A stretch of 60,485 bases of DNA from Candidatus Pacearchaeota archaeon. Its GTDB lineage: Archaea; Nanobdellota; Nanobdellia; Pacearchaeales; GW2011-AR1. The stretch covers positions 1 through 60,485 of the forward strand of contig SICV01000005.1 in NCBI GenBank assembly GCA_009694725.1, written 5' to 3'. Both the position numbers and the translations under genes were made by a program. This document shows, one piece after another, positions 1-16,473 of the stretch (position 1 is its first letter; each line of letters begins with the position of its first letter). The notes under the pieces are model-generated. The model ran no database searches. It worked only from the letters and a program-made list of their open reading frames with translations, and was not told where the DNA came from.

Positions 1-53
1 AGATAGCAAAACAAGACGGACAAATTATCGGCGAAATAGAATTCACAGAATAA
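1..53 (+). CDS. 3' end of a gene cut by the window edge
   Basis: Reading from base 3 gives an open frame of 16 codons ending in TAA at 51-53. The tail (IAKQDGQIIGEIEFTE) is too short to identify. A hairpin followed by T residues starts about 50 bases downstream, which supports this being a true gene end. The other two frames contain stops or run on without a clear gene character. Confidence 0.45.
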   Translation, partial: IAKQDGQIIGEIEFTE

Positions 54-105
54 ATTTTAATCATACTTTTTCTCAAAGTAACCATTTGGGGAAATTACCA
101 TAAGG

Positions 106-137
106 GCAGAGGTTCGTCTTCCTCTGCTTTTTATTTT
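106..137 (+). terminator. Hairpin plus T-tract terminator
   Basis: GCAGAGG (106-112) and CCTCTGC (121-127) form a perfect 7-bp stem with an 8-base loop, directly followed by TTTTTATTTT. This looks like an intrinsic terminator for the gene ending at 53. Archaea usually need only the T-tract, so such a strong stem is somewhat bacterial in style. Confidence 0.6.
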
Positions 138-170
138 ACTAGTAATCTTAGAATATTTTACTAGTAATCT
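133..170. repeat. Tandem 16-bp repeats carrying TTACTAGTAA palindromes
   Basis: ATTTTACTAGTAATCT occurs at 133-148 and again at 155-170. Each copy contains the perfect 10-bp palindrome TTACTAGTAA (136-145 and 158-167). The centres are 22 bp apart, two helical turns. The pair lies just upstream of a TATA-like TTTATATA (183-190) and the small ORF at 212. This spacing is what a paired dimeric regulator site would look like; the regulator is unknown. Confidence 0.5.
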
Positions 171-211
171 CTAACAAAACCCTTTATATAACCTTGATAA
201 GAATAATTTTT

Positions 212-364
212 ATGGATAAATTAAATAAAATTGAACAAAAACTTCAAGAAATGTCTGAAATACTTTCTTTACCTAAAGAAACCATAAGAAAAATGGCCGT
301 AATTAGGAGTAAAGAATTAAATAACTTGTTGAATGAGAGAATGAAATTATATGGATTTAAATAA
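212..364 (+). CDS. Small helical protein, 50 aa, unknown
   Basis: This ORF is below the track cutoff. ATG at 212 sits about 25 bases after the TATA-like TTTATATA, as expected for a leaderless archaeal gene. The protein (MDKLNKIEQKLQEMSEIL...) is rich in Lys and Glu with heptad-like Leu/Ile spacing, so it is probably a short helix or helical hairpin. It lies behind the tandem palindromes and may be their regulated target. No family was recognised; it could be a small regulator or antitoxin-like protein. Confidence 0.4.
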   Translation: MDKLNKIEQKLQEMSEILSLPKETIRKMAVIRSKELNNLLNERMKLYGFK

Positions 365-466
365 AGCTGAGATGATTTGTATACATTAAGATTATTAAGT
401 TCTTTATAAATAGGCTAAGAAAGTTATTAACAAAGGGTTTAAAAGTTAATAATTGGATTCCCCCGT

Positions 467-1792
467 ATGAATACGAGTAACTTATACAACGACCTTAAGA
501 AGCGTCTAGAATCGATAGAAAAAAGGCTCGTTAATCAACCAATAACTCCATCTTCTTATAAAGAAAAAGAGTTCTTAGCGACTATTACCGAATTGGAAGA
601 TTTAGTACGAGATAAGAAATTCTCTAGTATTGCTGAAGAAGTAGCTCGTTCAACATTCTTCAAAGAAAAGTGCAAGAGAATTAGAAAAATCTATGAGATA
701 TTTGAAGTATTTCTAGAAACAGAACAATATCTCGCTAATCTTGATAAGAAACTATCCATAGACAATAACCAACTCAAAAGAACATTTGAGTTTGCAAAGC
801 GAGAAGGCGAAGCCTCTGGAATGAATGATAAATCTCATGTGTTGTTTGTAGGGAGTGGAGCATTTCCTGAAACTGCTCTTGCCTACGCATTAACATTTAA
901 TTGCCAAGTTACCTGTCTTGATTATAATGTACAAGCCGTATCTTTATCTTCCAAGCTAATAGAAAAACAAGGATTACAAAATAAAGTAAAAGTTCTCTAT
1001 GGAGATGCGACAGAATTTAATTACGAAGGATATACCCATATTGTAGTTGCCGCTCTAGCCCATCCGAAGAATGAAATATTAACAAGAATTTGCAATACGT
1101 GCAAAAGTGCCGTAAACATTGTTTGCAGAACCGTAGAAGGAATAAGAAGTTTAATCTACGAACCTGCTGACGACCTGTTGCTAGAACATTACGACCTTAT
1201 TGAGAAAGTAAATGGAAGTTCAGAAACAATAGTTCATTCTCTCATTTTACGACACTTTCCCCACTCGACTAAAAAAGAACTAGAGTATCTTCCCTTCCAA
1301 TCAAAAGATGCACAAGAAGTGAGAGAGTTCTGTCTAAGAATCATAAAAGAAGAATACAATATAGACTACACTCCAGAATATCATACAGATTTGGACTTAT
1401 TGGGTAAAAAAGATGATATGTATTCTACTGATAAGAAAGGAGTATTTTTAGTTGTTAAGTATAAGAATCGAGTTGTAGGAGTTGGCGGTTTGAGGAATTT
1501 ATCAACTAAACCCCTAATAGCTAAGCAATTTAGCAATCGTTATGAGAACAAAGACATAGGTTCTTTGTGGCGAGTATACATAGATAAAGCATGGAGAGAT
1601 TACGGCATTGGCACAGAAATTGTTAATCGCTTAGAGGATGTAGCAAAGAAGTATAGTTATAAACAAATTTATCTTCATACGTCTCTTAAGAATCCTGATG
1701 CTGTGGAGTTTTGGAAAAGAAAGGGCTATATTGTATTCTTAGAAGAAGACAATGAAGACCAGACCGTACACATGGATAAACTGCTTAATTAG
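467..1792 (+). CDS. Nicotianamine-synthase-like methyltransferase fused to GNAT acetyltransferase
   Basis: The 441 residues fall into three parts. The first ~120 are helical. Residues ~125-265 are a Rossmann SAM-binding domain (VLFVGSGAFPETALA, then acidic LDYN, then GDATEF) whose order resembles the nicotianamine synthase/CntL family, which transfers aminobutyryl or methyl groups from SAM. Residues ~285-441 are a GNAT acetyltransferase, with WRVYIDKAWRDYGIGTEIV as the acetyl-CoA loop and a VEFWKRKGY end. TATA-like TTTAAAA lies near 437 and no Shine-Dalgarno is seen, so it is probably leaderless. The gene is AT-rich compared with the core genes and stands alone in accessory DNA, suggesting transfer. 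Known NAS-type enzymes make metallophore precursors; a tailoring acetylation is my inference. The substrate is unknown. Confidence 0.65.
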   Translation: MNTSNLYNDLKKRLESIEKRLVNQPITPSSYKEKEFLATITELEDLVRDKKFSSIAEEVARSTFFKEKCKRIRKIYEIFEVFLETEQYLANLDKKLSIDNNQLKRTFEFAKREGEASGMNDKSHVLFVGSGAFPETALAYALTFNCQVTCLDYNVQAVSLSSKLIEKQGLQNKVKVLYGDATEFNYEGYTHIVVAALAHPKNEILTRICNTCKSAVNIVCRTVEGIRSLIYEPADDLLLEHYDLIEKVNGSSETIVHSLILRHFPHSTKKELEYLPFQSKDAQEVREFCLRIIKEEYNIDYTPEYHTDLDLLGKKDDMYSTDKKGVFLVVKYKNRVVGVGGLRNLSTKPLIAKQFSNRYENKDIGSLWRVYIDKAWRDYGIGTEIVNRLEDVAKKYSYKQIYLHTSLKNPDAVEFWKRKGYIVFLEEDNEDQTVHMDKLLN

Positions 1793-1823
1793 TAACAAAT
1801 TGGGACACTTTGTTCTCGCGCGT

Positions 1824-1876
1824 GGTCCGGGCGTTTAACTAAACGCACGAGCCAGGGTCTGCACGATGCAATCTGG
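1824..1876 (+). other. Two adjacent stem-loops in the csp leader or a small RNA
   Basis: GCGTTTAACTAAACGC (1831-1846) is a strong hairpin, extended with one mismatch by GGTCCG and CGAGCC. A second hairpin follows at once: CCAG (1852) pairs with CTGG (1873), enclosing TGCA-CGA-TGCA. The stretch is visibly more GC-rich than its flanks and is followed by a T/C-rich run. It could be a 5' regulatory leader of the cold-shock gene, a free small RNA, or the terminator of the gene upstream. Confidence 0.4.
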
Positions 1877-1956
1877 CCAGCGTTTTCTTTCTCTTATCAA
1901 AAAGCATACCTTTACATACCCTCTCGATGGTTTAAAATAAGAGGAGGTAAACACAC

Positions 1957-2148
1957 ATGAACGGTACAGTAAAATTTTTCAATGATATGAAAGGATTTGG
2001 ATTCGTCTCTGGTGAAGACGGCAAAGACTACTTTGTCCATTCCACTAGTTTGACGTCTGGCGTCACGTTAAAAGAAGGAGACGTAGTCTCATTCGACGTA
2101 GAACAAGGCGAAAAGGGTCCAAAAGCAGTCAAAGTTGTAAAGAAATAA
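1957..2148 (+). CDS. cspA: Cold-shock domain protein (Csp)
   Basis: The 63-residue protein is a single cold-shock OB-fold with both nucleic-acid-binding motifs visible: KGFGFV (RNP1-like) and DYFVHST (RNP2-like). Such proteins bind single-stranded RNA or DNA and melt structure in mRNAs in the cytoplasm. A strong AGGAGGT lies ~9 bases before ATG, unlike most genes in this window, so it has a real 5' leader. Two stem-loops lie upstream, which fits leader-based thermoregulation as in bacterial cspA; that part is inference. Csp is patchy in archaea, so acquisition from bacteria is likely. A long T-run follows the stop. Confidence 0.93.
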   Translation: MNGTVKFFNDMKGFGFVSGEDGKDYFVHSTSLTSGVTLKEGDVVSFDVEQGEKGPKAVKVVKK

Positions 2149-2176
2149 TTTTCTACTACAACTGAGTATGCACATT

Positions 2177-2193
2177 TCTTTTTTATTTTTTTT
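2177..2193 (+). terminator. T-rich terminator after csp
   Basis: CTTTTTTATTTTTTTT follows the csp stop by about 30 bases, typical of archaeal T-tract termination. It ends just before the convergent nuclease gene's stop codon. Confidence 0.5.
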
Positions 2194-2197
2194 AAAT

Positions 2198-3019
2198 TTA
2201 CAACTGCGCATCAATAAGGTAATCTGAACTTGCAAGCATGTTTCTTCTGGCAACTTCTCGAAGGCACGCCTTTTTTTTACTATTGAACAGATCATTGATA
2301 TCCCCAATAGGGTAGTTATCAATCGACATCCCACACGAGAGTAATTCATCAGCAATTGCCTGAAGTTCTTCATGAAATGCCTGAATATCTCCTTCAGTAA
2401 ATCGATATTCTTTTGCAACGCCCAATTTCAAATAATGAAACTGCGTTTTATGGGGAATCTGTTGTTTCTGAGCATGTAAGAGAAAATTATAAAATAATGC
2501 CTGGCGTTCAAACTGTTTCCCTTGTTGTACGCTATTGCTTGTCTTGTAATCAATCACGACACGTTCCCCTACTCCTTTGTCAAGCGCTTGCAAATCAATA
2601 ATGCCTTTCACTCCAATACGCATCACTTCATTTTCCTTTAAAGGAAAGGCAATTGTTTCTTCACACACATGTTCTTCATGCTTATCAATAATCTGAATGC
2701 CTTTAACGACTGCCATTAGATAATCTGTTGGACGTAACGGCTCTCCCTTCAAATCAGTATGCACATGTAAATTACGTTGTTCCCAGAGTTCAGCAAAGAG
2801 GCGATAGGCACCATCCGCATCTACTTCTTTACGAGCATATTTTTCTAAACACGTATGCACCACATTTCCTGAAAGCCCATAACACACAGGCACTTTTGTA
2901 TCATCCGGCACTTTCGCGATATACGTTAAATAAAACAACAACGGACTCTGATAATACACATTCAAACTCGAAGGGGACAAATTAAATGCAATTTTGCCAT
3001 CACCTGTTCCTATCACCAT
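2198..3019 (-). CDS. PD-(D/E)XK nuclease, RecB/Cas4-like
   Basis: I start at the internal ATG at 3019 (MVIGTGDGKIAF), not at the track's 3133, because the extra N-terminus overlaps the divergent YdeI gene and is unlike the family. The catalytic core is visible: GVKGIIDLQ supplies the first Asp, VVIDYKTSN supplies the D-X-K motif, and QALFYNFLL is the trailing Gln motif of RecB-type nucleases. A His residue in GNVVHTCLEKY matches the upstream helix seen in this superfamily. It lacks the four cysteines of Cas4/AddB iron-sulfur nucleases. It probably acts on DNA ends in repair or defence. No partner helicase or CRISPR array is adjacent. Confidence 0.75.
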   Translation of the reverse strand: MVIGTGDGKIAFNLSPSSLNVYYQSPLLFYLTYIAKVPDDTKVPVCYGLSGNVVHTCLEKYARKEVDADGAYRLFAELWEQRNLHVHTDLKGEPLRPTDYLMAVVKGIQIIDKHEEHVCEETIAFPLKENEVMRIGVKGIIDLQALDKGVGERVVIDYKTSNSVQQGKQFERQALFYNFLLHAQKQQIPHKTQFHYLKLGVAKEYRFTEGDIQAFHEELQAIADELLSCGMSIDNYPIGDINDLFNSKKKACLREVARRNMLASSDYLIDAQL

Positions 3020-3093
3020 CCTTTTATCATAAAATGCAAGCTTAAAACAGTTCCGCTGGTAATGTATAAATGGAATCAAAAGTAAAAAAATAA

Positions 3094-3512
3094 ATGGAAG
3101 GGGAAATAATTCATCAAATAACGATTTACACACTCCAGGAATGGCGAGCGTGGCTACATAAAAATCACCTCACTGAAAAGAAAATTGCTCTTATCAGCTA
3201 CAAGAAACATACGGGCAAACCATCCATCAGCCATCAAGAGGCGATGCATGAAGCAATATGTTTCGACTGGATAGATACGACATTAAACGATTAGATGATG
3301 AACGTTTTCTCCGATATTTGTCAGACGAGGGACAAAGCAAACTGGAGTACGAACACATTGCATTCATACTAGGGCTCCATCTGATCGGAATCACATTTTC
3401 AATCGGCTTCAAGCCTGTGGGTGTCCGTGATTTTGGACTTGCGGCCCATATTATGGATGCCTACACGTTAGACAATAAACTGGCTACAACTGCACATTCT
3501 GTCAATAACTAA
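3094..3512 (+). pseudogene. YdeI/OmpD-associated family gene, frameshifted
   Basis: Frame 1 (3094-3294) encodes a clear YdeI-like N-terminus: EWRAWLHKNH, SYKKHTGKPSIS, then EAICFDWIDTTLND and a stop. The expected continuation, IKRLDDERFLRYLS, is present but in another frame (ORF track 3258-3512). Losing one base near 3282 explains the break. After that motif the second frame no longer resembles the family, so the 3' half may be replaced or degraded. The bacterial family is linked to bacteriocin and peptide protection; the biochemical role is not established. It is transcribed away from the nuclease gene. Confidence 0.65.
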
Positions 3513-3606
3513 TAACAAGAAAATAATGCTTCACAAAGGTACAAAGCGTAAAATAAAATAAAAGAGGAGCATCGGATATTAACATATTGTTGCTTCAAAT
3601 AAAAAA

Positions 3607-3873
3607 TTAACCTAATGCAGACCAATTAAAGATGGCATAAATATTGATACTTAAGAAAATAAGATTCATCACCACCAAACCCCAATGTTTAAACTTCCAC
3701 CCAAAGTATAACCACAACACATTTGCAAGACTCCAGACATAAAACCCACTAATCAATTGTTTTGCATTTAACACTGCACCAAAAACACTTAACGCCGTAG
3801 CAGACCACTCAACAAGATGGTGCTTCAATTGTTTCTCAATTGTATAGACCCTCGTGAATTGCCCCTTCTTCAT
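3607..3873 (-). CDS. Small integral membrane protein, PnuC/PQ-loop-like
   Basis: The 88 residues contain an N-terminal charged segment and about three membrane helices: ATALSVFGAVLNAKQ, FYVWSLANVLWLYFGWK and GLVVMNLIFLSINIYAIF. The Asn in GAVLNAK and the NVLWLYFGW motif resemble short PnuC-type nicotinamide-riboside carriers and semiSWEET/PQ-loop proteins, but the protein is far shorter than full PnuC. It would have to act as a multimer if it is a transporter. Its start codon is ~20 bases from a TATA box shared with tRNA-Met, so it is leaderless. Function is uncertain. Confidence 0.6.
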   Translation of the reverse strand: MKKGQFTRVYTIEKQLKHHLVEWSATALSVFGAVLNAKQLISGFYVWSLANVLWLYFGWKFKHWGLVVMNLIFLSINIYAIFNWSALG

Positions 3874-3892
3874 ATCAGCACAAATAAAGCAA

Positions 3893-3902
3893 CCTTTATA
3901 AG
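3893..3902. promoter_or_regulatory. Bidirectional TATA box (membrane protein / tRNA-Met)
   Basis: CCTTTATAAG reads as TTTATAAG toward the tRNA (starts at 3926) and as CTTATAAAGG toward the minus-strand gene (ATG at 3873). Both distances fit one TATA-binding-protein site driving both directions. Confidence 0.6.
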
Positions 3903-3925
3903 TCCTCTCCAGTCCCTATCACCAT

Positions 3926-4001
3926 AGCGGGGTAGAGCAGCCTGGAGTGCTCGCGAGGCCCATAACCTCGAGGTCGTGTGGTTCAAATCCCACCCCCGCT
4001 A
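3926..4001 (+). tRNA. tRNA-Met (CAU), initiator type
   Basis: The acceptor stem AGCGGGG/CCCCGCT is perfect, and its A1-U72 pair is the archaeal initiator mark. The D stem is GAGC/GCTC. The anticodon stem CGAGG/CCTCG encloses CCCAUAA, so the anticodon is CAU with C rather than U at position 33. The initiator's third stacked G-C pair is an A-U here. The T arm reads GTGTGG-TTCAAAT-CCCAC and contains one extra base compared with a normal 5-bp stem. No CCA is encoded. Initiator identity is favoured but not certain. Confidence 0.88.
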
Positions 4002-4090
4002 TTAATTTCTTTAAGGGGGATTTGAACGGTTCAAATACTACCCTCATTCTTCAGAGAGTATTGTAGGGACCGGTGAACTTTGCTCAACGA

Positions 4091-4108
4091 GTACCTACTC
4101 CCGCTATT
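4091..4108 (+). repeat. Degenerate copy of the tRNA-Met 3' end
   Basis: TACCTACTCCCGCTATT resembles the tRNA 3' end CCCACCCCCGCTATT, about 100 bases away. A T-arm-like GGTTCAAAT also occurs at 4039-4047. This may be the remnant of a partial tRNA duplication left by an integrating element. The match is short, so it could be chance. Confidence 0.3.
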
Positions 4109-4251
4109 TTTTCTGTAAGAAGTAGACACAGCTGTTTTTCATCACTATCTTCTTTTTAAGAGGACGTTCAGAATATACGGTATGCACTTCAAACCCGGGT
4201 GTGAAGGAAAAGTAGTAAAATTGCCTGAAATACAAGTCTTTTCTCACCAAA

Positions 4252-4461
4252 ATGTGCATCTTAGACAATGCAGCTTGGATTGCATTTGCCTATGCGATGG
4301 TCTTAACACCTATTGGTATTGTCGTTGCTCTCTCTGAAAGCTATATTCTCATCGGAGTGCTCCTAGGTATATGTGTAAATAAAGAACATCTCCAGCTTCA
4401 TCAAAAGTTCGGCCTTATTCTTGCACTCGGGGCGGCTATCTGGTTAGCCACAAGTGTGTGA
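4252..4461 (+). pseudogene. C-terminal fragment of an EamA/DMT-family transporter
   Basis: The 69 residues match only the last helices of an EamA-type drug/metabolite transporter: WIAFAYAMVLTPIGIVVALSESY, an acidic NKEHLQLHQK loop and a final GLILALGAAIWLA helix. A complete family member has ten helices and about 280-300 residues. Upstream the frame closes within a few codons (TAA before the NCLKYKS stretch) and I found no matching remainder in the other frames. The fragment probably survived a deletion between tRNA-Met and the toxin-antitoxin genes. Confidence 0.6.
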
Positions 4462-4471
4462 CCGTAATATT

Positions 4472-4491
4472 TATATATCAATTGATATATA
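4472..4491. promoter_or_regulatory. 20-bp perfect palindrome, likely toxin-antitoxin operator
   Basis: TATATATCAATTGATATATA is perfectly self-complementary, contains the TATA box itself, and ends 8 bases before the antitoxin ATG at 4499. A DNA-binding antitoxin sitting here would block the TATA-binding protein, giving the autorepression usual for such operons. Confidence 0.65.
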
Positions 4492-4498
4492 GTAAGTC

Positions 4499-4774
4499 AT
4501 GCAACAACTCAAACAAAATCCTTTTGCACGCTCACCCACGTTAGAAACAGTACAAATGGTAGAACGAGCAATAGAGGAGAATTCAGGTACCTATACCAGA
4601 ACAGAACTTTGGAAGAAATTGCCGAAGCAAGTAATGTGGCAGACCTATTTGTATATATTAGATTATTTACAAAGCATCAATAAAATAGCTCTTGATCGAG
4701 AAGATCATGTTGCCTATATCTGGAATCCAGAGCTAGCGCAAAAAATGGCTCACCGAAAAAGGATACAACTATAA
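4499..4774 (+). CDS. Winged-helix-like antitoxin of a RelE-type pair
   Basis: The 91-residue protein precedes the toxin with no gap: its TAA is directly followed by the toxin ATG. Residues ~20-60 (MVERAIEENSGTYTRTELW, then a KVMWQTYLYILDYL-like helix) fit a compact winged-helix domain, and the basic tail may bind toxin or DNA. It would act as antitoxin and autorepressor at the palindrome just upstream. The family was not firmly recognised; the assignment rests on gene order, size, the operator and the toxin downstream. Confidence 0.6.
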   Translation: MQQLKQNPFARSPTLETVQMVERAIEENSGTYTRTELWKKLPKQVMWQTYLYILDYLQSINKIALDREDHVAYIWNPELAQKMAHRKRIQL

Positions 4775-5107
4775 ATGAAAATCATACGCCCTTCTGAAGT
4801 TATCTTTGCAGATGATGCTGGTGAAAAAGCATTTGATGCATTAGAAAAAGGCAACGAATTAAGAAAATATCTGGAGCGTGCAATAAAGGATATACAACAG
4901 AATGCATTTTGCGGTATTCAGCTCCCAAAGCGTCTCTTTCCTCAAGAATACGTAAAGGAACACAAAATAACGAATCTCTGGAAGTATGATTTGCCCGATG
5001 GATGGAGAGTAGTGTATACCATTACTACTCCAAGCAAAGTTGAAGTGATAGCAATCATTCTCGAATGGTTATCCCATAAAGAATATGAACGGAGGTTCAA
5101 GTACTAA
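4775..5107 (+). CDS. RelE/ParE-superfamily toxin, putative mRNA interferase
   Basis: This 110-residue protein has the RelE fold pattern: an N-terminal helical hairpin (AFDALEKGNELRKYLERAI), then strands with NLWKYDLPDGWRVVYTIT and the closing IAIILEWLSHKEYERRF. The DLP-x-GWRVVYT segment and the C-terminal H/Y/R residues are typical of ribosome-dependent mRNA interferases. It follows the antitoxin immediately and ends 3 bases before rnhB, so rnhB may share its transcript. Whether it cleaves mRNA or poisons gyrase (ParE) cannot be decided from sequence alone. Confidence 0.75.
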   Translation: MKIIRPSEVIFADDAGEKAFDALEKGNELRKYLERAIKDIQQNAFCGIQLPKRLFPQEYVKEHKITNLWKYDLPDGWRVVYTITTPSKVEVIAIILEWLSHKEYERRFKY

Positions 5108-5110
5108 TCC

Positions 5111-5779
5111 ATGTTATACCTCGGTATTGATGATGCAGGGAGAGGCCCCCTTATTGGCCCTATGTATCTGGCAGGAGTATTGGTTGACGCAAAGACCCAA
5201 CAAGCCTGGAAGTCAGAAGGAGTAGCCGATTCAAAGACGCTCTCAGACAAAGAACGATTCCGTTTAGCAGCAATCATTAAAGATGAATGCATAAAATATA
5301 AAGTTATTGAATCAACACCGGCAGAAATAGATCATGCAGTAGACAAAGGAGGCATCAACCTCAATACCTTGGAGGCTCTGAAGGCAGCAGCAATTATTAA
5401 CGAATTGATGATCGGTGTCAAAGAACCAGTTACCATTATTCTTGATTGTCCCTCAATCAACACGCTCTCCTGGAAAGGGACACTCATACAGTTTGTGAAA
5501 AATCAAACGTTAGACATCAAGTGTGAACATAAAGCAGACGCAAATCATCCAAGCGTCAGTGCGGGTTCAATTCTTGCTAAGTGTGCACGTGAAGAAGCAA
5601 TGCATGCGATTCAAAAAGAATATGGGGCAACTGGTTCAGGCTACCCTGCTGATCCGATAACCAAAGAATTTCTTGTCAAAAGCGGAGCAAAATATGCACA
5701 TTCCGGCATCTTCCGAAAGTCCTGGGCAACCTGGAAAGCATTGTTTCCAGTCTCAAACGATCAAAAGACATTATTCTAA
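5111..5779 (+). CDS. rnhB: Ribonuclease HII
   Basis: The enzyme cuts RNA in RNA-DNA hybrids and removes single ribonucleotides and Okazaki primers. The 222 residues give the normal archaeal RNase HII length. The first motif is GIDDAGRGPLIGP, with Asp where most family members have Glu. Other family landmarks are VADSKTLSD, IILDCPS with a catalytic Asp, and KADANHPSVSAGSILAKC with the last Asp and the GSILAK signature. ATG at 5111 lies 3 bases after the toxin stop. The Asp/Asp variant should still bind metal and I believe it occurs in other archaea. It ends convergent with the ACT-like gene, overlapping by 9 bases. Confidence 0.95.
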   Translation: MLYLGIDDAGRGPLIGPMYLAGVLVDAKTQQAWKSEGVADSKTLSDKERFRLAAIIKDECIKYKVIESTPAEIDHAVDKGGINLNTLEALKAAAIINELMIGVKEPVTIILDCPSINTLSWKGTLIQFVKNQTLDIKCEHKADANHPSVSAGSILAKCAREEAMHAIQKEYGATGSGYPADPITKEFLVKSGAKYAHSGIFRKSWATWKALFPVSNDQKTLF

Positions 5780-5989
5780 ATAGGTCTTCAGTCGTGTCTG
5801 AGCTTCAGAAAAAGAAAGAGGGGCATGTCTGTCATAAGGCCGGATGTTAAAGAAAAAATGATTTTCAACATGTGTAGGAGTAACGACTGCTTGCATCCCA
5901 TGAATCTGAGCATGCGCTTGTTCATGGAGCAGACGGCTCAAGGCATACACAATACCGGGGCGATCTTTTTCTGTCTGAAATGAAAGCAC
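5771..5989 (-). CDS. Short ACT-domain-like protein
   Basis: The 72 residues read LSFQTEKDRPGIVYALSRLL and then a beta-rich NHFFFNIRPYD segment. This is the start of an ACT fold, whose DRPGIV-type loop binds amino acids or mediates dimers. The annotated start is GTG at 5989. The open frame continues upstream for about a dozen codons (ARLCIC) to a stop without an ATG or GTG, so the first strand may be missing or begin at a non-standard codon. It could be a truncated regulator or a small stand-alone ACT protein. It sits between rnhB and smc. Confidence 0.45.
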   Translation of the reverse strand: MLSFQTEKDRPGIVYALSRLLHEQAHAQIHGMQAVVTPTHVENHFFFNIRPYDRHAPLSFSEAQTRLKTYLE

Positions 5990-6094
5990 ACAGATACACA
6001 GGCGGGCGTGAGTTTCTTGATACAGTCATGGGCCTCATTTTAATCGATTCAAAGATTCGTCAAGAAGCAATAAAAAGAGAGTATCAAACAAGAC

Positions 6095-9076
6095 CTACTC
6101 ACTAAGAACAGTTGATTCTTCAGTAATTGCTTGCTCACCAGCTTGTTCTACTCTTTGTTGCTGTTCTACTTGTTCCTCAATTTTCTGTGCTTCTGCTGCC
6201 GCTTCTTGTATATTCAAGCTCAAGACTTTTGACACATTATCATGCATACTCACCCCATACAAGACCTGCGCTTGCATAATAATCGCATCATTGTGTGTAA
6301 TCACAATATACTGTCCCTGTTTCATGTACTTCACCAACAACGCCGCAAGACGCTCAGAGTTACGTTTATCCAATGCCGCGTCAATTTCATCAAACACATA
6401 GAAATGATAGGGTTTGTATTCTTGAATCGCAAACAAGAGCGACAAAGCGACCAAGGTCTGTTCCCCACCAGATAAGGAAGTCGCATCAAAGTATTTACCT
6501 TTCGCAAGCCGCACAATAATATGTACCCCTCCGGCAAAAATATCTTCAGGATTTTCTAATTCAAGATAGGCGGTCCCCTTTGTGTACAATTGCGCAAAGT
6601 TCTGGGTAAATAATTCATTCATAGCCCGGAACGTACGCATAAAGGAAAAGCGTTTCTTCTTATCAATTTCAGCAATAATCCCTATAATATCTATTTTTTC
6701 TTTTTCAACAATCTGTACTTTTCCATATACTTCATCATAGGAGTGTTTGACTTCATCATAGACTTCGAGGGCTCGTTGATTCACGCTCCCAATCGAACCA
6801 AGGTGTTCATGTGCTTTGCCAAGACGCTCTTCAAGATACGCCACACTTCCTTGTATCACTTCAAGCCCGGCAAAATCAATTAATTCCATTTCAACCGCTT
6901 CTCGTTCGGCATCAATCTTTGCTTTGCCAATCTTCAAATAATTGACTTGTTCTTCAATTGCGCGTATTCCACTCTGGGCCTGGCTCAATTCACCAGTCTT
7001 TGCTTGAATCAGTCGTTGTTTTTCTTCTCGTTCCGCAAATAATTGTTTAAATCTGGCCTGCAGATCTTTTTCCTGTCCTTCTTTTTCCTGTAACTGCCCT
7101 TGTTTTGTTTCAATGATCGTACTAAATGTCCCAATTTCTTTCTCTGCTTCCTCACGATCTCGGAGAGCTTGTTTAATGACTACGTGCATCTGTTCAAGTT
7201 CTCGCTTCTTGAAGAATAACGTTTTATCCATATCTTGTGAAGTACGAGCCGATAATTCCTCAATTTCCAGCATTTTAGAGCTATATTTTTCTTCGAGGGC
7301 TGAAATATCAGTTCCTTTCTCTTCAAGCTGTACACGTCGATGTTCTAACGTTTGCAATTCCTGACGAATCAATTTTTCTTCCTCAAGGTTCTTCTTGAGC
7401 TGTTGATGTTTCTCTTTCAAGGTGTGATGACGAATCTGCTCAACTTCAGCGCTATGAAGCCGTTGTTCAAGGTGAGCGAGGTCATGGGCCAAGGAACTTC
7501 GTTGAGCCAATAACTGTTGTAGCACTTCAGTACTCAACATACGTTGCTTCTCGGCGTGCCCCGCTAACAGATTAGCTTCATCACGCACATGTTGTTTATG
7601 GTCAGGCGTAATGGTCGTGCGACAAAGAGGACAGATATCGAGATTAGCAACCTGGTCGGTCAATTTCAATGAACGTTCCATTTCAATCTCCGAAACAGAA
7701 ATTAATTTTTCATGCTGGAGCGTTTGTTTGGCAATTGCTTCCAGTTCAGCGCGCAAATGAGTCGTTTGTGCTTTACCTTCATGAACAAAGTGACTACACG
7801 CCTCTTCAGTCTTGAACACTAAATGCGCTGCTCCTTCTTCCAACTGTCGAACCAGCGCTTCATTAAATGCAATTGTACGAGATAAGGTCTTTTCTCGTTC
7901 AAGCCAACGTTCACGAATATGGATCAGTTCAGATTTGGTTGCACGGACTTTTGTACGTGCTTCTTCAAGCTGGGCAAGTTCTTGTTTCTTTTTAGTTAAC
8001 TCTTCTGCTTTCTGAGCAGATCCCGGGGCGTCCGTAGCAAGCTGGGTAATTTCTACTTCAAGAGCAGGCACTGAACGCTGTAATTCCTGTATTCTTCGTT
8101 CAAAGTTCAACCGACGTTGCTCATATCCTTCTTTACGTACCTTCATTCCTTCCAATTCAGCCCGAAGATTAGCAATATGTGTATGGAGTTGTTCTTGCTC
8201 AAGCCCGGTTGCTTGCTGCACTTGCCGAGAAATCTGATTGCTTTGTTCTCCCAACGCATCAATCACGGCTTGCAATTCAAGGCCCTTAGATTTGGCAGCA
8301 TCTTTATGGGCCGTTTTTTCACCAATCGAATGGTTAATCGTATCCCCTTCCTTTTGCTTGTCAATCTTTCGTTTCGTCAATAACGAAGCTTTACACCGGC
8401 GAACGGTCAATTCTAACTCTTTGAACTTTAATGCTTGCTGGCGTTCATGTTCCAAATTCTTCAAATAGGCAGTACGTTCTCGCAGAATCGCCATAATCTC
8501 TTTCAATCGTTCATCTGTTTTCTCTAATTCTTTCAAACTTTTTTCTTTCCGTGATTCATAAATGGCAATCCCCGCAACTTCTTCAATGATTTTACGTCGT
8601 TCTTCAGGATGCATCTTAACAATGGACTGTATTTGGCCCTGAAGCACCATATTAAATCCATACGGGTCAATCCCTGCCTGGGCTAAGATCTCAATGACTT
8701 CTAATCGCGTCTTCGTCTCCCCATTAATCTTATAAATTCCCTGCCCATTTGCTCGGACAATTCTGGTCAAACTCACCTCATCCGTTTCCAATCCAAACAA
8801 GCGATCTCGATTATCAAACACTAATTCAACACTTGCCTCTCGAGCCGGTTTGACATATTTGCTCCCCATAAACAAGAGGTTCTTTGCCTTTGCCGCACGC
8901 AGACTCTTAATGCTTAATCGACCCAAAGCAAAGCATAAGGCATCAGAAATATTACTCTTACCTGAACCATTGGGGCCCAAGACTACGTTAATCCCCTTAT
9001 CAAAGTGGACTTCTGTTCGTCGTGCAAAGCTTTTGAAGCCATGCATTACCATTCGTGTAATATGCACCATCTTCAT
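6095..9076 (-). CDS. smc: SMC ATPase with a Rad50-like zinc hook in place of the hinge
   Basis: The head domains are SMC-type. GFKSF and GPNGSGKSN (Walker A) lie near residue 35. VLQGQIQSIVKMHPEERRKI follows in the N-terminal half. Near the C-terminus are LSGGEQ (~865) and FYVFDEIDAALD (Walker B, ~897). Two long coiled coils join them. In the middle I see no hinge domain; instead CPLC (Cys482, Cys485) sits exactly where the coil turns, like the CxxC hook of Rad50. At 993 residues it is shorter than the usual ~1150-1200. It should organise chromosomes or bridge DNA by Zn-mediated dimerisation. Two ATGs (9076, 9070) are possible starts; a TTAAATA box lies ~25 bases upstream. No ScpA or ScpB gene is adjacent. 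Confidence 0.9.
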   Translation of the reverse strand: MKMVHITRMVMHGFKSFARRTEVHFDKGINVVLGPNGSGKSNISDALCFALGRLSIKSLRAAKAKNLLFMGSKYVKPAREASVELVFDNRDRLFGLETDEVSLTRIVRANGQGIYKINGETKTRLEVIEILAQAGIDPYGFNMVLQGQIQSIVKMHPEERRKIIEEVAGIAIYESRKEKSLKELEKTDERLKEIMAILRERTAYLKNLEHERQQALKFKELELTVRRCKASLLTKRKIDKQKEGDTINHSIGEKTAHKDAAKSKGLELQAVIDALGEQSNQISRQVQQATGLEQEQLHTHIANLRAELEGMKVRKEGYEQRRLNFERRIQELQRSVPALEVEITQLATDAPGSAQKAEELTKKKQELAQLEEARTKVRATKSELIHIRERWLEREKTLSRTIAFNEALVRQLEEGAAHLVFKTEEACSHFVHEGKAQTTHLRAELEAIAKQTLQHEKLISVSEIEMERSLKLTDQVANLDICPLCRTTITPDHKQHVRDEANLLAGHAEKQRMLSTEVLQQLLAQRSSLAHDLAHLEQRLHSAEVEQIRHHTLKEKHQQLKKNLEEEKLIRQELQTLEHRRVQLEEKGTDISALEEKYSSKMLEIEELSARTSQDMDKTLFFKKRELEQMHVVIKQALRDREEAEKEIGTFSTIIETKQGQLQEKEGQEKDLQARFKQLFAEREEKQRLIQAKTGELSQAQSGIRAIEEQVNYLKIGKAKIDAEREAVEMELIDFAGLEVIQGSVAYLEERLGKAHEHLGSIGSVNQRALEVYDEVKHSYDEVYGKVQIVEKEKIDIIGIIAEIDKKKRFSFMRTFRAMNELFTQNFAQLYTKGTAYLELENPEDIFAGGVHIIVRLAKGKYFDATSLSGGEQTLVALSLLFAIQEYKPYHFYVFDEIDAALDKRNSERLAALLVKYMKQGQYIVITHNDAIIMQAQVLYGVSMHDNVSKVLSLNIQEAAAEAQKIEEQVEQQQRVEQAGEQAITEESTVLSE

Positions 9077-9226
9077 CCCACAAGGGAAAAACCGCTATTT
9101 AAGGATACCGCGTTCCGTGGTATAAATGTAGAGTGCGTTTAAAAAATTCTAAAAAAAGAAAAAAGCACACAACGCCTAAAAAAAAAGAAAAGGGGGCGCC
9201 GTATGCGGGGTTGCAATCAAGCTCAG

Positions 9227-10429
9227 TTAGTAATAACTTTCGCCGAATTCGTCAGCCTTTTGTGGCTTACGAGTTAAGAGAACAATCAATACAACGAGAA
9301 GAACTACAAAGATAATCGCAAGGATAACTGTTAAAACAACAGTACCATTTGCAGTCTTTGCAGAGCCTTCAACCATTGTAACGAATGTCTTCTGTGCGAC
9401 AAGGTTACCGTCTGCTTTTACATTAACAACAAAAGTATACTTACCTGCTTTTTCAGCAGAGGCAAGGACTTTTACAGTCTTTGTAGAACCAGAAGGAAGG
9501 GCAACGATTTGATCAACAGAAGAAACCTGCAATCCAGCAGGGCCCTCAAAGACCAATTCATAGACCTGTACCTTATTTCCTGAGTTCACGAGAGTCATAC
9601 TGTATTCAGCAGGTTCGTTTGCAGCAACAGTTGTGCTGGACGTAGTGCTTACCACAGTGGTGTCTTCGGAACCACCAACTACTGCCACTTTACCGGCATA
9701 GCTGGAGGAGGAGTCTGCATTGTATACTTCTACGTGAATCGCATAGATTCCAGCAGGAGTACGAGCGGGAATGTTCAAGAACATTCTTCGTTCGGCAGCA
9801 TCTTCCTTATCAGGGTTAGCTTGGTCTACTGGTGCAAGATCACCGAAGTATACTCGGCGCTCAACGCCAAGTGCAGGGATACTTGCTTTGACAAAGGTGT
9901 CATCAGCAAATTGTCTACCGGTATTCTTCAAGACAATGTCAAGAGAAAGGGCAGAACCTGCAACTACTTTCGGATCATAAGCGACATCCAAAACGGTAAC
10001 CTGATAAGATTCACGTTGAGTTGCCAACTTAATGATCTGAACAGGAAGAATTCCATTGTTACGGCTCTCTACTGAGATACGTAATTCAAGGTTTTCATCT
10101 CGTTCGTCAAGATCGGAAGGGACATCAAGAGTCAATAACTTGCTGTAAACGCTATTAGCGAGAACATCAAATCGTTCACTCGAGACGGCATAATCCGAAT
10201 CACCAGAGATCCAAGCTTTGATACGCACATCGGATGCATTTTCAGTCGCGCTAAAAATCACACGTATTGGTAAGGTCTGACCAGCAAAAACTCCAACGGA
10301 GGGATTGCCAGGCAAAGCTTCAATACCTGCAACTTCAACACTTGAAATGCTTCCGCTTAACGCGCTTACGGTACTCAGGACAAGAAGTCCTGCAACCATA
10401 GCAACGAGGGCAATCAAATACTTGTTCAT
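9227..10429 (-). CDS. Secreted, membrane-anchored surface (S-layer-like) protein
   Basis: I start at the second Met (10429, MNKYLIALVAMVAGLLVLS) because GGAG lies at Shine-Dalgarno distance before it and it opens directly into a signal peptide. The ~370-residue exterior is beta-rich with repeated CARDB/NEW3-like modules (DIVLKNTGRQFADDT, YSMTLVNSGNKVQVYELV), typical of archaeal cell-surface proteins. A Thr/Ser-rich linker (TTVVSTTSSTTV) could be glycosylated. A single C-terminal membrane helix (VILAIIFVVLLVVLIVLL) and a short cytoplasmic tail follow. The role is probably structural, in the surface coat or adhesion. Its own TATA box (TTTATATA) is near 10475. Confidence 0.75.
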   Translation of the reverse strand: MNKYLIALVAMVAGLLVLSTVSALSGSISSVEVAGIEALPGNPSVGVFAGQTLPIRVIFSATENASDVRIKAWISGDSDYAVSSERFDVLANSVYSKLLTLDVPSDLDERDENLELRISVESRNNGILPVQIIKLATQRESYQVTVLDVAYDPKVVAGSALSLDIVLKNTGRQFADDTFVKASIPALGVERRVYFGDLAPVDQANPDKEDAAERRMFLNIPARTPAGIYAIHVEVYNADSSSSYAGKVAVVGGSEDTTVVSTTSSTTVAANEPAEYSMTLVNSGNKVQVYELVFEGPAGLQVSSVDQIVALPSGSTKTVKVLASAEKAGKYTFVVNVKADGNLVAQKTFVTMVEGSAKTANGTVVLTVILAIIFVVLLVVLIVLLTRKPQKADEFGESYY

Positions 10430-10560
10430 AGATAGGTGTAGCTCCATATTTAGTTAAAAGAGCATCCTGAAAGGGATATATAAACTTGCCGGTGACAACA
10501 CTATTATCTTAATTTAAAAGGGACAACAAGACTTATATAGGTATACCGAGGTATTCCAGA

Positions 10561-10809
10561 ATGGAAGACAAGGAACAGGGAGCTAAGGCAGTACCTTCAC
10601 GTACTCCCCACAAAATAACGACGATAAAACTCTCAGAAGAAACAAAAAGCCGTATTGACCACCTCAAGCGCTATCCCCGCGAAACCTATGAAGAAATCCT
10701 CGTGCGCATGCTTGAACTCCTCAGTCTCACCCGTCACAGTCCAGAACGTGCGCGTATTTCCCTTATCAAACTTGATAAAGAACGTCGCAAGAACTTACCT
10801 GGAAAATAA
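10561..10809 (+). CDS. Ribbon-helix-helix-like DNA-binding protein
   Basis: Residues ~18-58 (ITTIKLSEETKSRIDHLKRY, then ETYEEILVRMLELL) match the archaeal RHH pattern: one strand plus two helices, dimerising to bind DNA. Such 80-residue proteins are often antitoxins or local repressors. The C-terminal basic part may extend the DNA contact. TATA-like CTTATATAGG lies near 10531, giving a short or absent leader. Two further small genes follow on the same strand, with no recognisable toxin. Confidence 0.65.
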   Translation: MEDKEQGAKAVPSRTPHKITTIKLSEETKSRIDHLKRYPRETYEEILVRMLELLSLTRHSPERARISLIKLDKERRKNLPGK

Positions 10810-10811
10810 AA

Positions 10812-10895
10812 ATGAATAATACAAAAGAACATGTCATCAGTAAATTAAGAACACTAGAATATGCATTACAGGCCATACAAAGGGAGAATTCATGA
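10812..10895 (+). CDS. 27-aa ORF coupled to the next gene
   Basis: The ORF is too short for the track. It starts 2 bases after the RHH gene and its TGA overlaps the next gene's ATG (ATGA). The peptide (MNNTKEHVISKLRTLEYALQ) is a plausible amphipathic helix. An AAAGGGAG sequence inside it could be the ribosome site for the downstream ORF, so it may exist only to couple translation. Confidence 0.3.
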   Translation: MNNTKEHVISKLRTLEYALQAIQRENS

Positions 10896-11299
10896 CAAAC
10901 ATAAAAAAAACTCCGGCTGTTTTCAAAAGTCGTGAAAATATCAATAGGGTGAACATAGTTCTCGATCCCATTATCGAACGAAGAAAATTGGGGCTTCTCA
11001 AAGGAATCGGCTATGATTTAAGCAATCTCTGGGGAAGGGCATCTTCTACTGGAAAAATGACCCAGATGGGTGCAGAAGGGTATATTCGAGAAAAACTAGA
11101 AGATGCCCTGGAATGGCTAAGCCTCAATCCAACACAGTGCGTTCAAGGGGAAGGGACGCGTCTCATTGCAGACCTACGATGTGAACGCATGCGAGAGTAT
11201 CTTACGCAACTACACTATCCTGTGCATGAACAAGAACGAATTTTTAGAGAATTAAGTGAAATTAATCCCGCTATTTCGTATTCTGCTGCAGAGCACTAA
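10892..11299 (+). CDS. Hypothetical protein, 135 aa
   Basis: No family was recognised. The protein is soluble and mostly helical, with a basic N-terminus (MTNIKKTPAVFKSRENINRV) and a central RKLGLLKGIGYDLSNLWGRA segment. AAAGGGAG precedes the ATG, and the start overlaps the preceding mini-ORF. It is probably co-transcribed with the RHH regulator gene and may be its partner, but nothing in the residues suggests a known toxin. It converges on the DUF5069 gene with a 7-base gap. Confidence 0.55.
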   Translation: MTNIKKTPAVFKSRENINRVNIVLDPIIERRKLGLLKGIGYDLSNLWGRASSTGKMTQMGAEGYIREKLEDALEWLSLNPTQCVQGEGTRLIADLRCERMREYLTQLHYPVHEQERIFRELSEINPAISYSAAEH

Positions 11300-11306
11300 A
11301 AAGAGT

Positions 11307-11747
11307 TTACCGAATAAAACTCATTTTATCATCCACGTCTAACCAATGGAAGAGCGTTGTTGTCACCGGATCAAGAGATACTTTCGTACATTCCCCGGTA
11401 AACCAGGCCCCAAAGTCACTCGGCGTTGCACCGGGGTGCTGAGTACACATGCGATCACTCCAGGCCTTAATTTCTTCAGGGGTGCGATGTTGTCCGAACT
11501 TCCCTAACCAGGCAATAACCTCTGCATCACTTTTCCCCGGGTGGACAAATGCTTTGAACGCATCGCCCGTAATCTCTTTGAACGTAAATAATTCTTTATC
11601 AACAGGGCAATCAAAATGATACTCTCCTTGCTTCCCATGAATGGTCGCACGGCACTTATCAAGCGTACGGGCAAGAATCGCATATCCCCCTAAGCGTATA
11701 GCAGCGCTCCGTGGAGGATTATGGGTAAGGTCAATAAGCATGTGCAT
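11307..11747 (-). CDS. DUF5069-family protein
   Basis: The order RLGGYAILARTLDKCRATI, GEYHFDCPVDKELF and then a C-terminal helical part matches DUF5069, a widespread bacterial family of unknown function that is rare in archaea. Length (146) is normal for the family. The conserved KxRA and YxxxCP residues suggest a small-molecule or metal site, but no activity is known to me. A TATA box (CCTTATATAC, minus strand) lies about 25 bases before ATG 11747. It is monocistronic, and bacterial origin is likely. Confidence 0.8.
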   Translation of the reverse strand: MHMLIDLTHNPPRSAAIRLGGYAILARTLDKCRATIHGKQGEYHFDCPVDKELFTFKEITGDAFKAFVHPGKSDAEVIAWLGKFGQHRTPEEIKAWSDRMCTQHPGATPSDFGAWFTGECTKVSLDPVTTTLFHWLDVDDKMSFIR

Positions 11748-11804
11748 ACACAGGAAAATGGGCTCGAAGTATATAAGGACGATGAACGTTTTGAAATAAT
11801 AGGG

Positions 11805-11930
11805 TTATTTTTCGTTCCATTCCCAATCAAAATCTTCTTCAATCGCTTCAAATTCTTTAGTTATCTTCAAACTTTCCTCAGCCATTTCTTTGCAACCTTC
11901 TATCATCAGCGCCTTCTCTTTTCTGTTCAT
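11805..11930 (-). CDS. 41-aa acidic-tailed protein coupled to nfo
   Basis: This gene is absent from the ORF track. ATG at 11930 overlaps the nfo stop by 4 bases (ATGA), a strong sign of translational coupling. The protein starts basic (MNRKEKALMIEGCKEMAEES) and ends acidic and aromatic (EAIEEDFDWEWNEK). This two-part design, with a short helix then an acidic tail with aromatics, resembles small antitoxins or peptide partners that fold onto another protein. No toxin is adjacent, so it may instead bind endonuclease IV or be an orphan antitoxin. Confidence 0.6.
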   Translation of the reverse strand: MNRKEKALMIEGCKEMAEESLKITKEFEAIEEDFDWEWNEK

Positions 11931-12709
11931 AGCTTCCCCCACAACTTCATCCCCACCACCGCATCTGCCACCATATCAGGGCTTTCATTTATGATTCGAA
12001 TTTTTTTATCCCGAGGCAAATGAGCAAGTAACGCTTTCCATTCCTTCACCCCTGTCTTGATATGGTGCTTTTCTCCTTTCTCCCCATACACAATCCCAGA
12101 GAAATGCACGTGCCATTCTTCTTGGGGAAATGCTTTCAGAATAAGGGCATAATCGACTTTCTTATCCCTGGCCAAGATATGCGCAAAATCGATACACACC
12201 GCACACCCGGTTTCCTGCGCAAGTCGTGAAATTTCATCAATACTCCCAAACACATTGATCTTCCCCATCGTCTCAGGGGCAATTTGAATTACCCATTTAT
12301 TCTTTTTGAGTTCCTTCATAATATCGATAATACCCTCTTTCACCACAGTATACGCTTGTATACGATCGACACCTTCACGATAGTACCCCGGGTGAAAAAC
12401 AACTACTTTCGCCCCCAACCATTCTCCCACTTTACAACATTCAAGAATACGTTGCTTCGTCGCCGCACGTTTTACCGGATCATCGCTATTCAAATTCACA
12501 TAATAGGGCGCATGAATGCTCAACTCTATGCCTAATTCTGCAGCTCGCTTCTGAATAGTGCGCGCATCCGTCTCAGATTTAATATAGGCCCCGTGGGTGA
12601 ACGCCAATTCACATGCTCGTAAGCCCTGAGCATGGAATGCTTCCAAGGTAGCAATTGCAGATTTCGTAGGTCCCAATCCTGCTGGCCCAAAGAGTACTTC
12701 TTTGTTCAT
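11927..12709 (-). CDS. nfo: Endonuclease IV (AP endonuclease)
   Basis: The 260-residue TIM-barrel enzyme cuts DNA 5' of abasic sites in base-excision repair. Zinc ligands are visible in order: SIHAPYYVN (His), VVFHPGYY (His), IAPETMGK (Glu), CIDFAHILA (Asp and His), HVHFSG (His) and INESPD (Glu). The length is slightly short of the ~280 of E. coli Nfo, with a compact C-terminus. The product of the MutY-like glycosylase gene elsewhere in the window could supply abasic sites. A 41-aa gene overlaps its 3' end. Confidence 0.92.
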   Translation of the reverse strand: MNKEVLFGPAGLGPTKSAIATLEAFHAQGLRACELAFTHGAYIKSETDARTIQKRAAELGIELSIHAPYYVNLNSDDPVKRAATKQRILECCKVGEWLGAKVVVFHPGYYREGVDRIQAYTVVKEGIIDIMKELKKNKWVIQIAPETMGKINVFGSIDEISRLAQETGCAVCIDFAHILARDKKVDYALILKAFPQEEWHVHFSGIVYGEKGEKHHIKTGVKEWKALLAHLPRDKKIRIINESPDMVADAVVGMKLWGKL

Positions 12710-12779
12710 ATCCTCTTCAGAAAACCACCCTTAATAAAAACTACCGCAATCTATAAATAGAAACGAAGCACTTATTCCT

Positions 12780-13061
12780 ATGCACGAACAGGACATTACG
12801 CGGCTGCTCGGATCAGATCGTGCCAAGTTCTTTCTTGATGCCACGGATGCATTCTATGGCCCCAAAGACCAAGCAAAAGAAATGCTCTATCACTACCTTA
12901 CACAATTATCGGTCATTGATCCGAACAAACCCTCTCTACGGCAACTTCAAAACTGGTATGAAGTCCAACGAACACTCCACCAACGACGAGTCGCCATGAA
13001 AACAACAGAAGCGCACTTCATTTTGAGCTTAGCACTCGATGATCTCTTTCACCGTAATTAA
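12780..13061 (+). CDS. Hypothetical helical protein, 93 aa
   Basis: No family was recognised. It is soluble and helical, with no cysteines. TATA-like CTATAAATAG (~12751) lies about 25 bases before ATG 12780, so it is leaderless. It is the first of four orphan plus-strand genes (12780-15109), each with its own TATA box. Confidence 0.55.
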   Translation: MHEQDITRLLGSDRAKFFLDATDAFYGPKDQAKEMLYHYLTQLSVIDPNKPSLRQLQNWYEVQRTLHQRRVAMKTTEAHFILSLALDDLFHRN

Positions 13062-13088
13062 TTTATAGTCTTCATTCGCCCCGATACT

Positions 13089-14141
13089 ATGAAAAAGTCC
13101 TTTTTTGCCGAAAGAACAGAGAAAGAAATTGAAGCTCTCAAAGTAACAAGAATCTATAGAGCACGAGGACTTGTTGATACCCTTTTGACGCTCGATCCTA
13201 CCACCGAAGCACTCATTGTACAGCAACCTCTCTTACCCCCCGCTATCATGCGAAGAGACATCCCCCAATCGGAATCTGCAAAGATGTGGTTCAAACACGG
13301 GACGGTTATCAAAGCGTCTCAACCTCGCACACAGCAGGACGCCTACGACTGTAAAGAGATTCCGGTAGCTATGAGAAAGCGAGACCTCGATAGCTTGCAA
13401 CTCAGAAAAGAAGAAACTATTTTTGACGTAGGATATTCTTGGTTCCCCGTGCAAGGTCCTGATCGAAGAACACGCACAGACTTTTTCTGCTTTGTACCTG
13501 ATTCGCTCAGATTATTTGCCTACGCAGAAACAAAGACGGGGGGAATTGTCGTTACACCATATGATGATGCACGAAAGGTAGGCAAAGAGGGTGCACGCAT
13601 TATCTGTACGGTTCCTTCCCGTACTAAGAAGCAACCACGGTATACTGTCGAATTAGTAAACGTACCCACTGAAGGGATTACCGAACGTCGCGCAATCCCG
13701 TGGGGCATTCGCGCCGAGTATGGTAAAGCAGGAGAACCGCTGCATAAAACATTTAGTTTCGGATACAAATATGAACATGATAATCGCTCATCTGATGTCT
13801 ATCTTTTTGCTCCGCATGAAAGAGCAGCCTATATCGGCGTCATTCGCGAATTCTGGAAAGGACAGAATAACCTCACCCCGTTAGAAATGAATCCCTTTAT
13901 GTTGCTCTCAAAGGAAGGGGCAGAATTTTCTCGCCGAGCACATAATAACCTTCTTATCTATGATCCAACAACACATAATTTCAAAGGTGGATTGAGAAAG
14001 CCCTATCTTGCCGAACATGCCATCCTTATGGCCCGTCTCTGTGCAATCAAAGGCCATGATGCAACCTTCTATTGGGATCCTGAACGCGATGGAAAACTTA
14101 AAGACTATAACTGGTCTATTCCCCAGAAAGAAAATAAGTAA
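13089..14141 (+). CDS. Hypothetical protein, 350 aa
   Basis: No family was recognised. It is a soluble alpha/beta protein with no signal peptide. The middle contains FDVGYSWFPVQGPDRRTRTDFF and later FSFGYKYEHDNRS, and the end is aromatic-rich (DATFYWDPERDG). The TATA box (AATTTATAGTC) overlaps the stop of the preceding gene and lies ~25 bases before this ATG, so it has its own promoter. It is probably lineage-specific. Confidence 0.6.
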   Translation: MKKSFFAERTEKEIEALKVTRIYRARGLVDTLLTLDPTTEALIVQQPLLPPAIMRRDIPQSESAKMWFKHGTVIKASQPRTQQDAYDCKEIPVAMRKRDLDSLQLRKEETIFDVGYSWFPVQGPDRRTRTDFFCFVPDSLRLFAYAETKTGGIVVTPYDDARKVGKEGARIICTVPSRTKKQPRYTVELVNVPTEGITERRAIPWGIRAEYGKAGEPLHKTFSFGYKYEHDNRSSDVYLFAPHERAAYIGVIREFWKGQNNLTPLEMNPFMLLSKEGAEFSRRAHNNLLIYDPTTHNFKGGLRKPYLAEHAILMARLCAIKGHDATFYWDPERDGKLKDYNWSIPQKENK

Positions 14142-14197
14142 CTATAAAGTAGTAACGTAATCGAAAGGTTTATAGAGGGTCATTTCTGAGTGAGGGG

Positions 14198-14587: not shown

Positions 14588-14674
14588 TGAGTACAAAAAT
14601 ATAAAAAATTTTTATATTCCAATTAAGACAGGAGTCATCGGAGAGTATATAATGCTTAATTCGATAAGTAAGAA

Positions 14675-15109: not shown

Positions 15110-15112
15110 TAA

Positions 15113-16297: not shown

Positions 16298-16367
16298 AGT
16301 GTGTAATAACGACCTATCCAAGGTCCCGTCGTAGAGGGAGAACAAACAATAAACTGTCTACCGAATG

Positions 16368-16436
16368 CCTAAAAAGGCCCTGAGTCACGAAAGCACAGAG
16401 TGCTTAGGATGACCGAAGAACCGTAAGGTTCTCAGG
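16368..16436 (-). other. Structured 5' leader of dnaG (three-way-junction-like)
   Basis: CCTGAG (16379-16384) pairs with CTCAGG (16431-16436), enclosing two perfect hairpins: AAGCAC-AGA-GTGCTT (16391-16405) and AGAACC-GTAA-GGTTCT (16417-16432, sharing two bases with the outer stem). GCC-TAAAAA-GGC (16368-16379) flanks it. The only good TATA box points on the minus strand into dnaG. The GTAA loop is a GNRA tetraloop only if the plus strand is transcribed, so orientation is open. It could be a regulatory leader or a separate small RNA. Confidence 0.45.
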
Positions 16437-16473
16437 TGTGAATGTGAGTTCTTACTACACTATCCCCAAATGC

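Follow-up and report, generated by a model that had tools for sequence, protein, structure and literature searches.

The open reading frame (ORF) at 467–1792 joins a nicotianamine synthase (NAS) family half to a GNAT acetyltransferase half in one chain, and this fusion gives a known enzyme family a new architecture. The best explanation, which we hold tentatively and for which we infer both the product and the GNAT substrate, is that an aminocarboxypropyl transferase and an N-acetyltransferase are combined in one protein and would make an acetyl-capped nicotianamine-like chelator. More doubtful is the wider proposal that ultra-small archaea would have a metallophore class of their own, nicotianamine-like and acetylated, made by such a single-chain synthase with a Thr-variant active site, the acetyl cap taking the place of the opine dehydrogenase step. 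Known sources of nicotianamine-like metallophores are plants, fungi, bacteria, and one methanogen. If the best explanation is true, a metallophore-type synthase, encoded beside metal regulators in relatives, would give the reduced-genome DPANN archaea a metal-handling chemistry for which we found no published description. The fusion also makes it testable what the unexplained acetyltransferases of bacterial opine-zincophore clusters do.

The fusion gene and its locus

The window, that is, the whole analyzed stretch of 60,485 nt, is an entire contig (C9) of a MAG that comprises 636 kb in 10 contigs, is ~87% complete, and represents a very small, uncultured archaeon allied to the Woesearchaeota. 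The fusion gene begins 467 bp from the contig end, which truncates its upstream neighborhood. It is one ORF of 441 aa with an ATG start and zero internal stops, exactly where an earlier reading made from the sequence alone (below, the sequence-only reading) had placed it; it is a single open frame also in the genome copy, and it is present in the genome in a single copy. The following features can be distinguished.

424..452, no strand: perfect inverted repeat with 8-nt arms, TTATTAAC-N13-GTTAATAA, directly upstream of the start codon; candidate operator
467..1792, + strand: NAS-GNAT fusion gene, 441 aa; single ORF, both domains over Pfam cut-offs
467..820, + strand: N-terminal helical NAS domain, aa 1–118, with E84 and T106; MtNAS profile match, AlphaFold2 helices, alignment columns
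821..1258, + strand: Rossmann SAM-binding NAS domain, aa 119–264, with motifs GSGAFPE, VAALAHPK, and CRTVEGIRSLIYEP; PF03059 at aa 122–261, Foldseek top 12
1259..1306, + strand: linker and start of the GNAT fold, aa 265–280; standalone NAS relatives are 250–281 aa long, and the GNAT family alignment begins at ~aa 272
1307..1789, + strand: GNAT acetyltransferase domain, aa 281–441, with acetyl-CoA motif RDYGIG; PF00583 at 55.2 bits, identity to Rhizobiales GNATs 38–39%

The inverted repeat is a possible, putative operator, and the frequency of one arm sequence in the window is near chance. An operator common to the fusion gene and its relatives was rejected, the repeat being AT-rich and near chance.

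The gene had been described as isolated in AT-rich accessory DNA, and this description holds only in part. It has the highest AT content among the long ORFs (34.9% GC vs. a window value of 41.5%), but in codon usage it stays inside the range of the other window ORFs, which leaves foreign DNA by codon usage unsupported, and core archaeal genes follow downstream (e.g., RNase HII-like, SMC, EF, and RNA polymerase genes). Other genes of the contig encode a cold-shock protein, a PD-(D/E)XK nuclease, an SMC-like ATPase, EF-1A/EF-2 GTPases, RNA polymerase subunits, and a class II ribonucleotide reductase. In the neighborhood, cut upstream by the contig end, the fusion gene has no metal transporter, regulator, or opine dehydrogenase next to it; thus, the nearby transporter or dehydrogenase genes that had been suggested as a check were not found at this locus.

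Two minor observations concern the adjacent DNA. The region 3094–4461 contains short broken-looking ORFs (an NMN-transporter-like ORF of 88 aa and an EamA fragment of 69 aa) around tRNA-Met at 3924–4003, a picture suggestive of gene decay or of an insertion site; the EamA remnant at 4252–4461 was considered as an exporter and rejected as too short. The intergenic region 1793–1956, before the cold-shock gene, has a strong G+C-rich predicted RNA structure (z −1.9), which has no counterpart in Rfam and may be a 5′ leader of the cold-shock gene; Rfam gave zero matches within window positions 1–20000.

Family identity and active site

The sequence-only reading had proposed a SAM-binding fold at residues ~125–265. 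The Pfam NAS model (PF03059) matches residues 122–261 with 36.2 bits against a cut-off of 27.1, in agreement with this proposal, and the NAS similarity also covers the upstream N-terminal helical domain. In a single-sequence search the best match among solved structures is MtNAS (E 1.1e-11, residues 40–236). When the query and its three relatives are combined in a profile, MtNAS is matched at 5e-21 (profile positions 17–249 of 262) and CntL at 5e-16, with nothing further below 0.001 among solved structures. By either search, the similarity to MtNAS is far outside chance levels. The AlphaFold2 model has a pLDDT of about 80–90 across most of the NAS half, and Foldseek with this model returns only MtNAS or CntL at ranks 1–12 (E 4.5e-14 to 2.1e-10, ~260 aligned columns), the other methyltransferase folds having E-values of 1.6e-8 or weaker. 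The two-domain NAS architecture, N-terminal helical plus Rossmann, is present in residues 1–264, which by these comparisons constitute a full-length NAS-family protein. For the NAS half, both the profile searches and the structure prediction that had been suggested gave positive results.

Alternatively, the NAS resemblance of the first domain could be superficial and the domain a generic SAM methyltransferase. Generic models do match, weakly (Methyltransf_31, 24.1 bits), but all of them fall below their cut-offs, NAS is the sole methyltransferase-fold-type model over the Pfam cut-off in the fusion protein, the N-terminal NAS domain is present, and in E-value MtNAS is several orders of magnitude ahead of the other methyltransferase folds. 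We regard this alternative as largely refuted and as having hardly any chance of being correct; a generic methyltransferase without NAS similarity, the outcome named earlier as decisive against the NAS assignment, is not what was found. The earlier label of NAS-like methyltransferase was right about the relationship to NAS and has to be corrected for the activity, which by family should be aminocarboxypropyl transfer and not methylation.

The label NAS/CntL-like also needs refinement. The half is related to both proteins and is closer to archaeal MtNAS than to CntL. MtNAS (PDB 3FPE/3FPF), an archaeal thermonicotianamine synthase assigned to “class IV” NAS, has in common with the query the full-length NAS fold, the catalytic Glu, archaeal origin, and the motifs VAALA.PK and RT..G.R...Y.P; on the other hand, the two are about 20% identical, MtNAS Tyr107 is Thr in the query, and the query adds the C-terminal GNAT. 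CntL (PDB 7C7M), the staphylopine aminobutyrate transferase, has the same fold, SAM-binding domain, and equivalent of the catalytic Glu, but its system differs from the query in the CntM-type dehydrogenase, not detected in the query genome, and in having no fused GNAT. The CntL model NF033601 is the best NCBIfam model for the first half, at 39.5 bits vs. the 350-bit equivalog cut-off. With a score so far under the cut-off and with the dehydrogenase missing, CntL/staphylopine membership was rejected. A tree of eight NAS sequences is too small for a firm placement of the query (support 55).

MtNAS relies on Glu81 and Tyr107 to deprotonate its acceptor amine (PMC10491745), and their equivalents in AtNAS1, where the Tyr is Y106, are essential (PMC10248798). 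In our alignment the equivalent of Glu81 is E84, identical in all four woesearchaeal sequences, and the Tyr107 position is occupied by T106, with Thr in the same 4/4 and no gap between this position and the SAM-binding loop. Three CntL-type sequences of the alignment have Leu in this column; hence, Tyr is not universal in the wider NAS family, and its presence was not counted as a condition of family membership. Because Thr replaces Tyr, the acceptor or the mechanism may differ from those of MtNAS.

The GNAT domain, already described as complete and in the same ORF, matches PF00583 at residues 293–421 with 55.2 bits vs. a cut-off of 20.7, and RDYGIG fits the motif R-x-x-G-x-G; as judged from the sequence, it is indeed complete and in frame with the NAS half. 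Its pLDDT is mostly <60 in the AlphaFold2 model, since no other member of the three-sequence alignment covers this half.

Relatives of the two halves and rarity of the fusion

The three nearest NAS relatives belong to genomes of the same class, two of them in records titled Candidatus Woesearchaeota.

G066: standalone NAS, 281 aa, 46% identity over query residues 1–262, no fused GNAT
G509: standalone NAS, 263 aa, 39% identity, no fused GNAT
G093: standalone NAS, 250 aa, 35% identity, no fused GNAT

These proteins (JAGVZE010000016.1, PCYA01000012.1, and G509) resemble the query over the NAS half, with 35–46% identity and the same E/T pattern, and differ from it in having no GNAT and, in two cases, a NikR or Fur family regulator beside the gene. 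In G509, the NAS gene and a NikR gene are transcribed divergently (L053:8084–8872 and 8947–9345; NikR_C, PF08753, 62.5 bits); for the latter, the best NCBIfam matches are nickel-responsive regulators, under their cut-offs. This DPANN locus is thereby a candidate for a metallophore system linked to nickel. In G093, the NAS gene forms a divergent pair with a Fur-family gene (L021:8611–9363 and 9418–9789; PF01475, 64.7 bits), and a near-perfect palindrome at 9403–9424 lies just before and overlaps the start of the latter. The NAS neighbors in G066, a kinase and a DNA-binding protein, have no metal link; a GNAT gene near this NAS gene (L022:190–630) was rejected as the counterpart of the fused family, being convergent and a generic GNAT outside that family. 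The independent NikR and Fur-family pairings link the NAS family to metal homeostasis, and they are the best evidence for such a role in this analysis.

Among the collections searched, the nearest relatives of the GNAT half are standalone GNATs from Rhizobiales plasmids (38–39% identity, ~170 aa), with no NAS gene adjoining them. In the same phylum this half gives only partial, generic GNAT matches. Some of its bacterial relatives adjoin a metal-sensitive repressor or a cation-efflux gene, a small sample that carries little weight.

The fusion was seen only in the source genome among 181 genomes of the family, 200 of the order, 377 sampled from the class, and 371 sampled from the phylum; thus, the same fusion, which had been expected to be worth seeking elsewhere, did not appear in these samples, where only standalone NAS was found. 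By profile, the source genome is alone in having a full-length NAS among the 181 family and 200 order genomes, the class sample has full-length NAS in 2/377 genomes plus two short partial matches, and PF03059 matches occur in 3/371 genomes of the phylum sample. In the 26-genome family of G066 the profile finds three NAS. A sister genome (G002) lacks the fusion gene beside the syntenic nuclease. Single-protein and profile scans of 84,980 genomes, which need near-exact patterns, gave standalone NAS only, and distant independent fusions could escape them; the sampling by lineage stayed within the phylum of the source genome, without methanogens and Bacillota. In the literature, a survey of 186 NAS proteins lists archaea and bacteria with short, unextended NAS only (PMC10248798), and we came across neither a paper that treats NAS in Woesearchaeota nor an open-access account of a NAS-GNAT fusion.

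No full-length match was found in phages, plasmids, or IMG/VR viral contigs, and a phage or plasmid origin was rejected on these grounds. A separate observation concerns OQ572412.1 (L020), labelled Pseudomonas phage Y11 and UNVERIFIED, in which positions 38113–46586 look like a bacterial pseudopaline cluster with TonB receptor-like, CntL-like, dehydrogenase-like, and EamA-like frames; possibly, this is host DNA contamination.

Proposed mechanism and alternative explanations

MtNAS and CntL transfer a 3-amino-3-carboxypropyl group from SAM with release of methylthioadenosine. The transfer leaves a new primary amine, and it is this amine that CntM alkylates in staphylopine-type pathways. By family analogy, the NAS half of the fusion would bind S-adenosylmethionine, E84 would assist in taking a proton from an acceptor amine (on an amino acid, for instance Glu or His, or on a first product), and the 3-amino-3-carboxypropyl group would be moved to the acceptor with release of methylthioadenosine. 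In the second step, we hypothesize, the tethered GNAT would use acetyl-CoA to acetylate the product at its free primary amine. A tether of ~10 residues places the GNAT well for acetylation of this same amine, so acetylation would be the capping step, ending the chain in place of a staphylopine-type opine dehydrogenase. The protein would likely function in metallophore synthesis, its product being a small chelator with which the cell would handle metals such as Ni, Zn, or Fe. The opine dehydrogenase model PF10100 (staphylopine-type, CntM), which scores 404–484 bits on true opine dehydrogenases, has matches in 0/4 genomes, namely those of the three relatives and the source genome at its ~87% completeness.

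Pairing of similar activities is observed in two known systems. Bacterial opine-zincophore clusters likewise contain a NAS-type enzyme and an acetyltransferase of the PF00583/PF13673 type with no assigned role (Morey and Kehl-Fie, 2020; PMC7438024), but there the genes are separate and accompanied by CntM and transporters, whereas the query is one chain with no CntM and no transporters nearby. In microcin C, MccD and MccE2 likewise pair aminocarboxypropyl or aminopropyl transfer with a GNAT; unlike the query, they are separate proteins acting on a peptide-nucleotide, and the methyltransferase subfamily is a different one. Given the unexplained zincophore-cluster acetyltransferases and the self-protection by GNAT in microcin C, both capping and detoxification would be reasonable readings of the GNAT role.

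An unlikely but substantial alternative is a repurposed NAS half that would move the aminocarboxypropyl group to another acceptor, such as a peptide, nucleotide, or polyamine, with the GNAT modifying or detoxifying the product in the manner of MccD and MccE2. The invariance of Thr in place of the catalytic Tyr across the four woesearchaeal sequences fits this alternative, as does microcin C, where aminopropyl decoration is accompanied by a GNAT that confers self-immunity through acetylation of a primary amine (PMC9239234). Nevertheless, the metal regulators beside two standalone relatives fit metal handling, MccD as a fold match (5fcd, rank 29) is far below MtNAS and CntL, and no peptide or antibiotic cluster was recognized near the fusion gene. 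Somewhat less probable still is that both halves are real and independent, a metallophore-type NAS sharing no more than the chain with a GNAT whose substrate is unrelated. Such independence is consistent with the standalone state of the GNAT family in Rhizobiales, with no adjoining NAS, and of the three NAS relatives; at the same time, only about 10 aa link the halves, metal-themed neighbors occur also at some bacterial GNAT relatives, and domain fusion usually combines functionally linked activities.

It is very unlikely that two genes were joined at a contig end by an error of assembly or sequencing. It is true that the fusion is known from one MAG, close to the contig end, with no second copy in the sampled relatives. 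Yet the frame is continuous without a stop, the domain boundaries meet cleanly, and the equal GC of the NAS and GNAT halves (35.0 and 34.8%), together with codon usage inside the window range, argues against an artefact.

Against the acetyl-capped chelator as the best explanation stand T106, the lack of adjoining metal genes, the standalone GNAT relatives, the occurrence in one MAG, and the failure to detect SAM synthetase PF01941, in a search for the archaeal type only, in the source genome and those of the three relatives, two of which are 99–100% complete. A PF01048 phosphorylase/nucleosidase is present in the source genome and could recycle methylthioadenosine.
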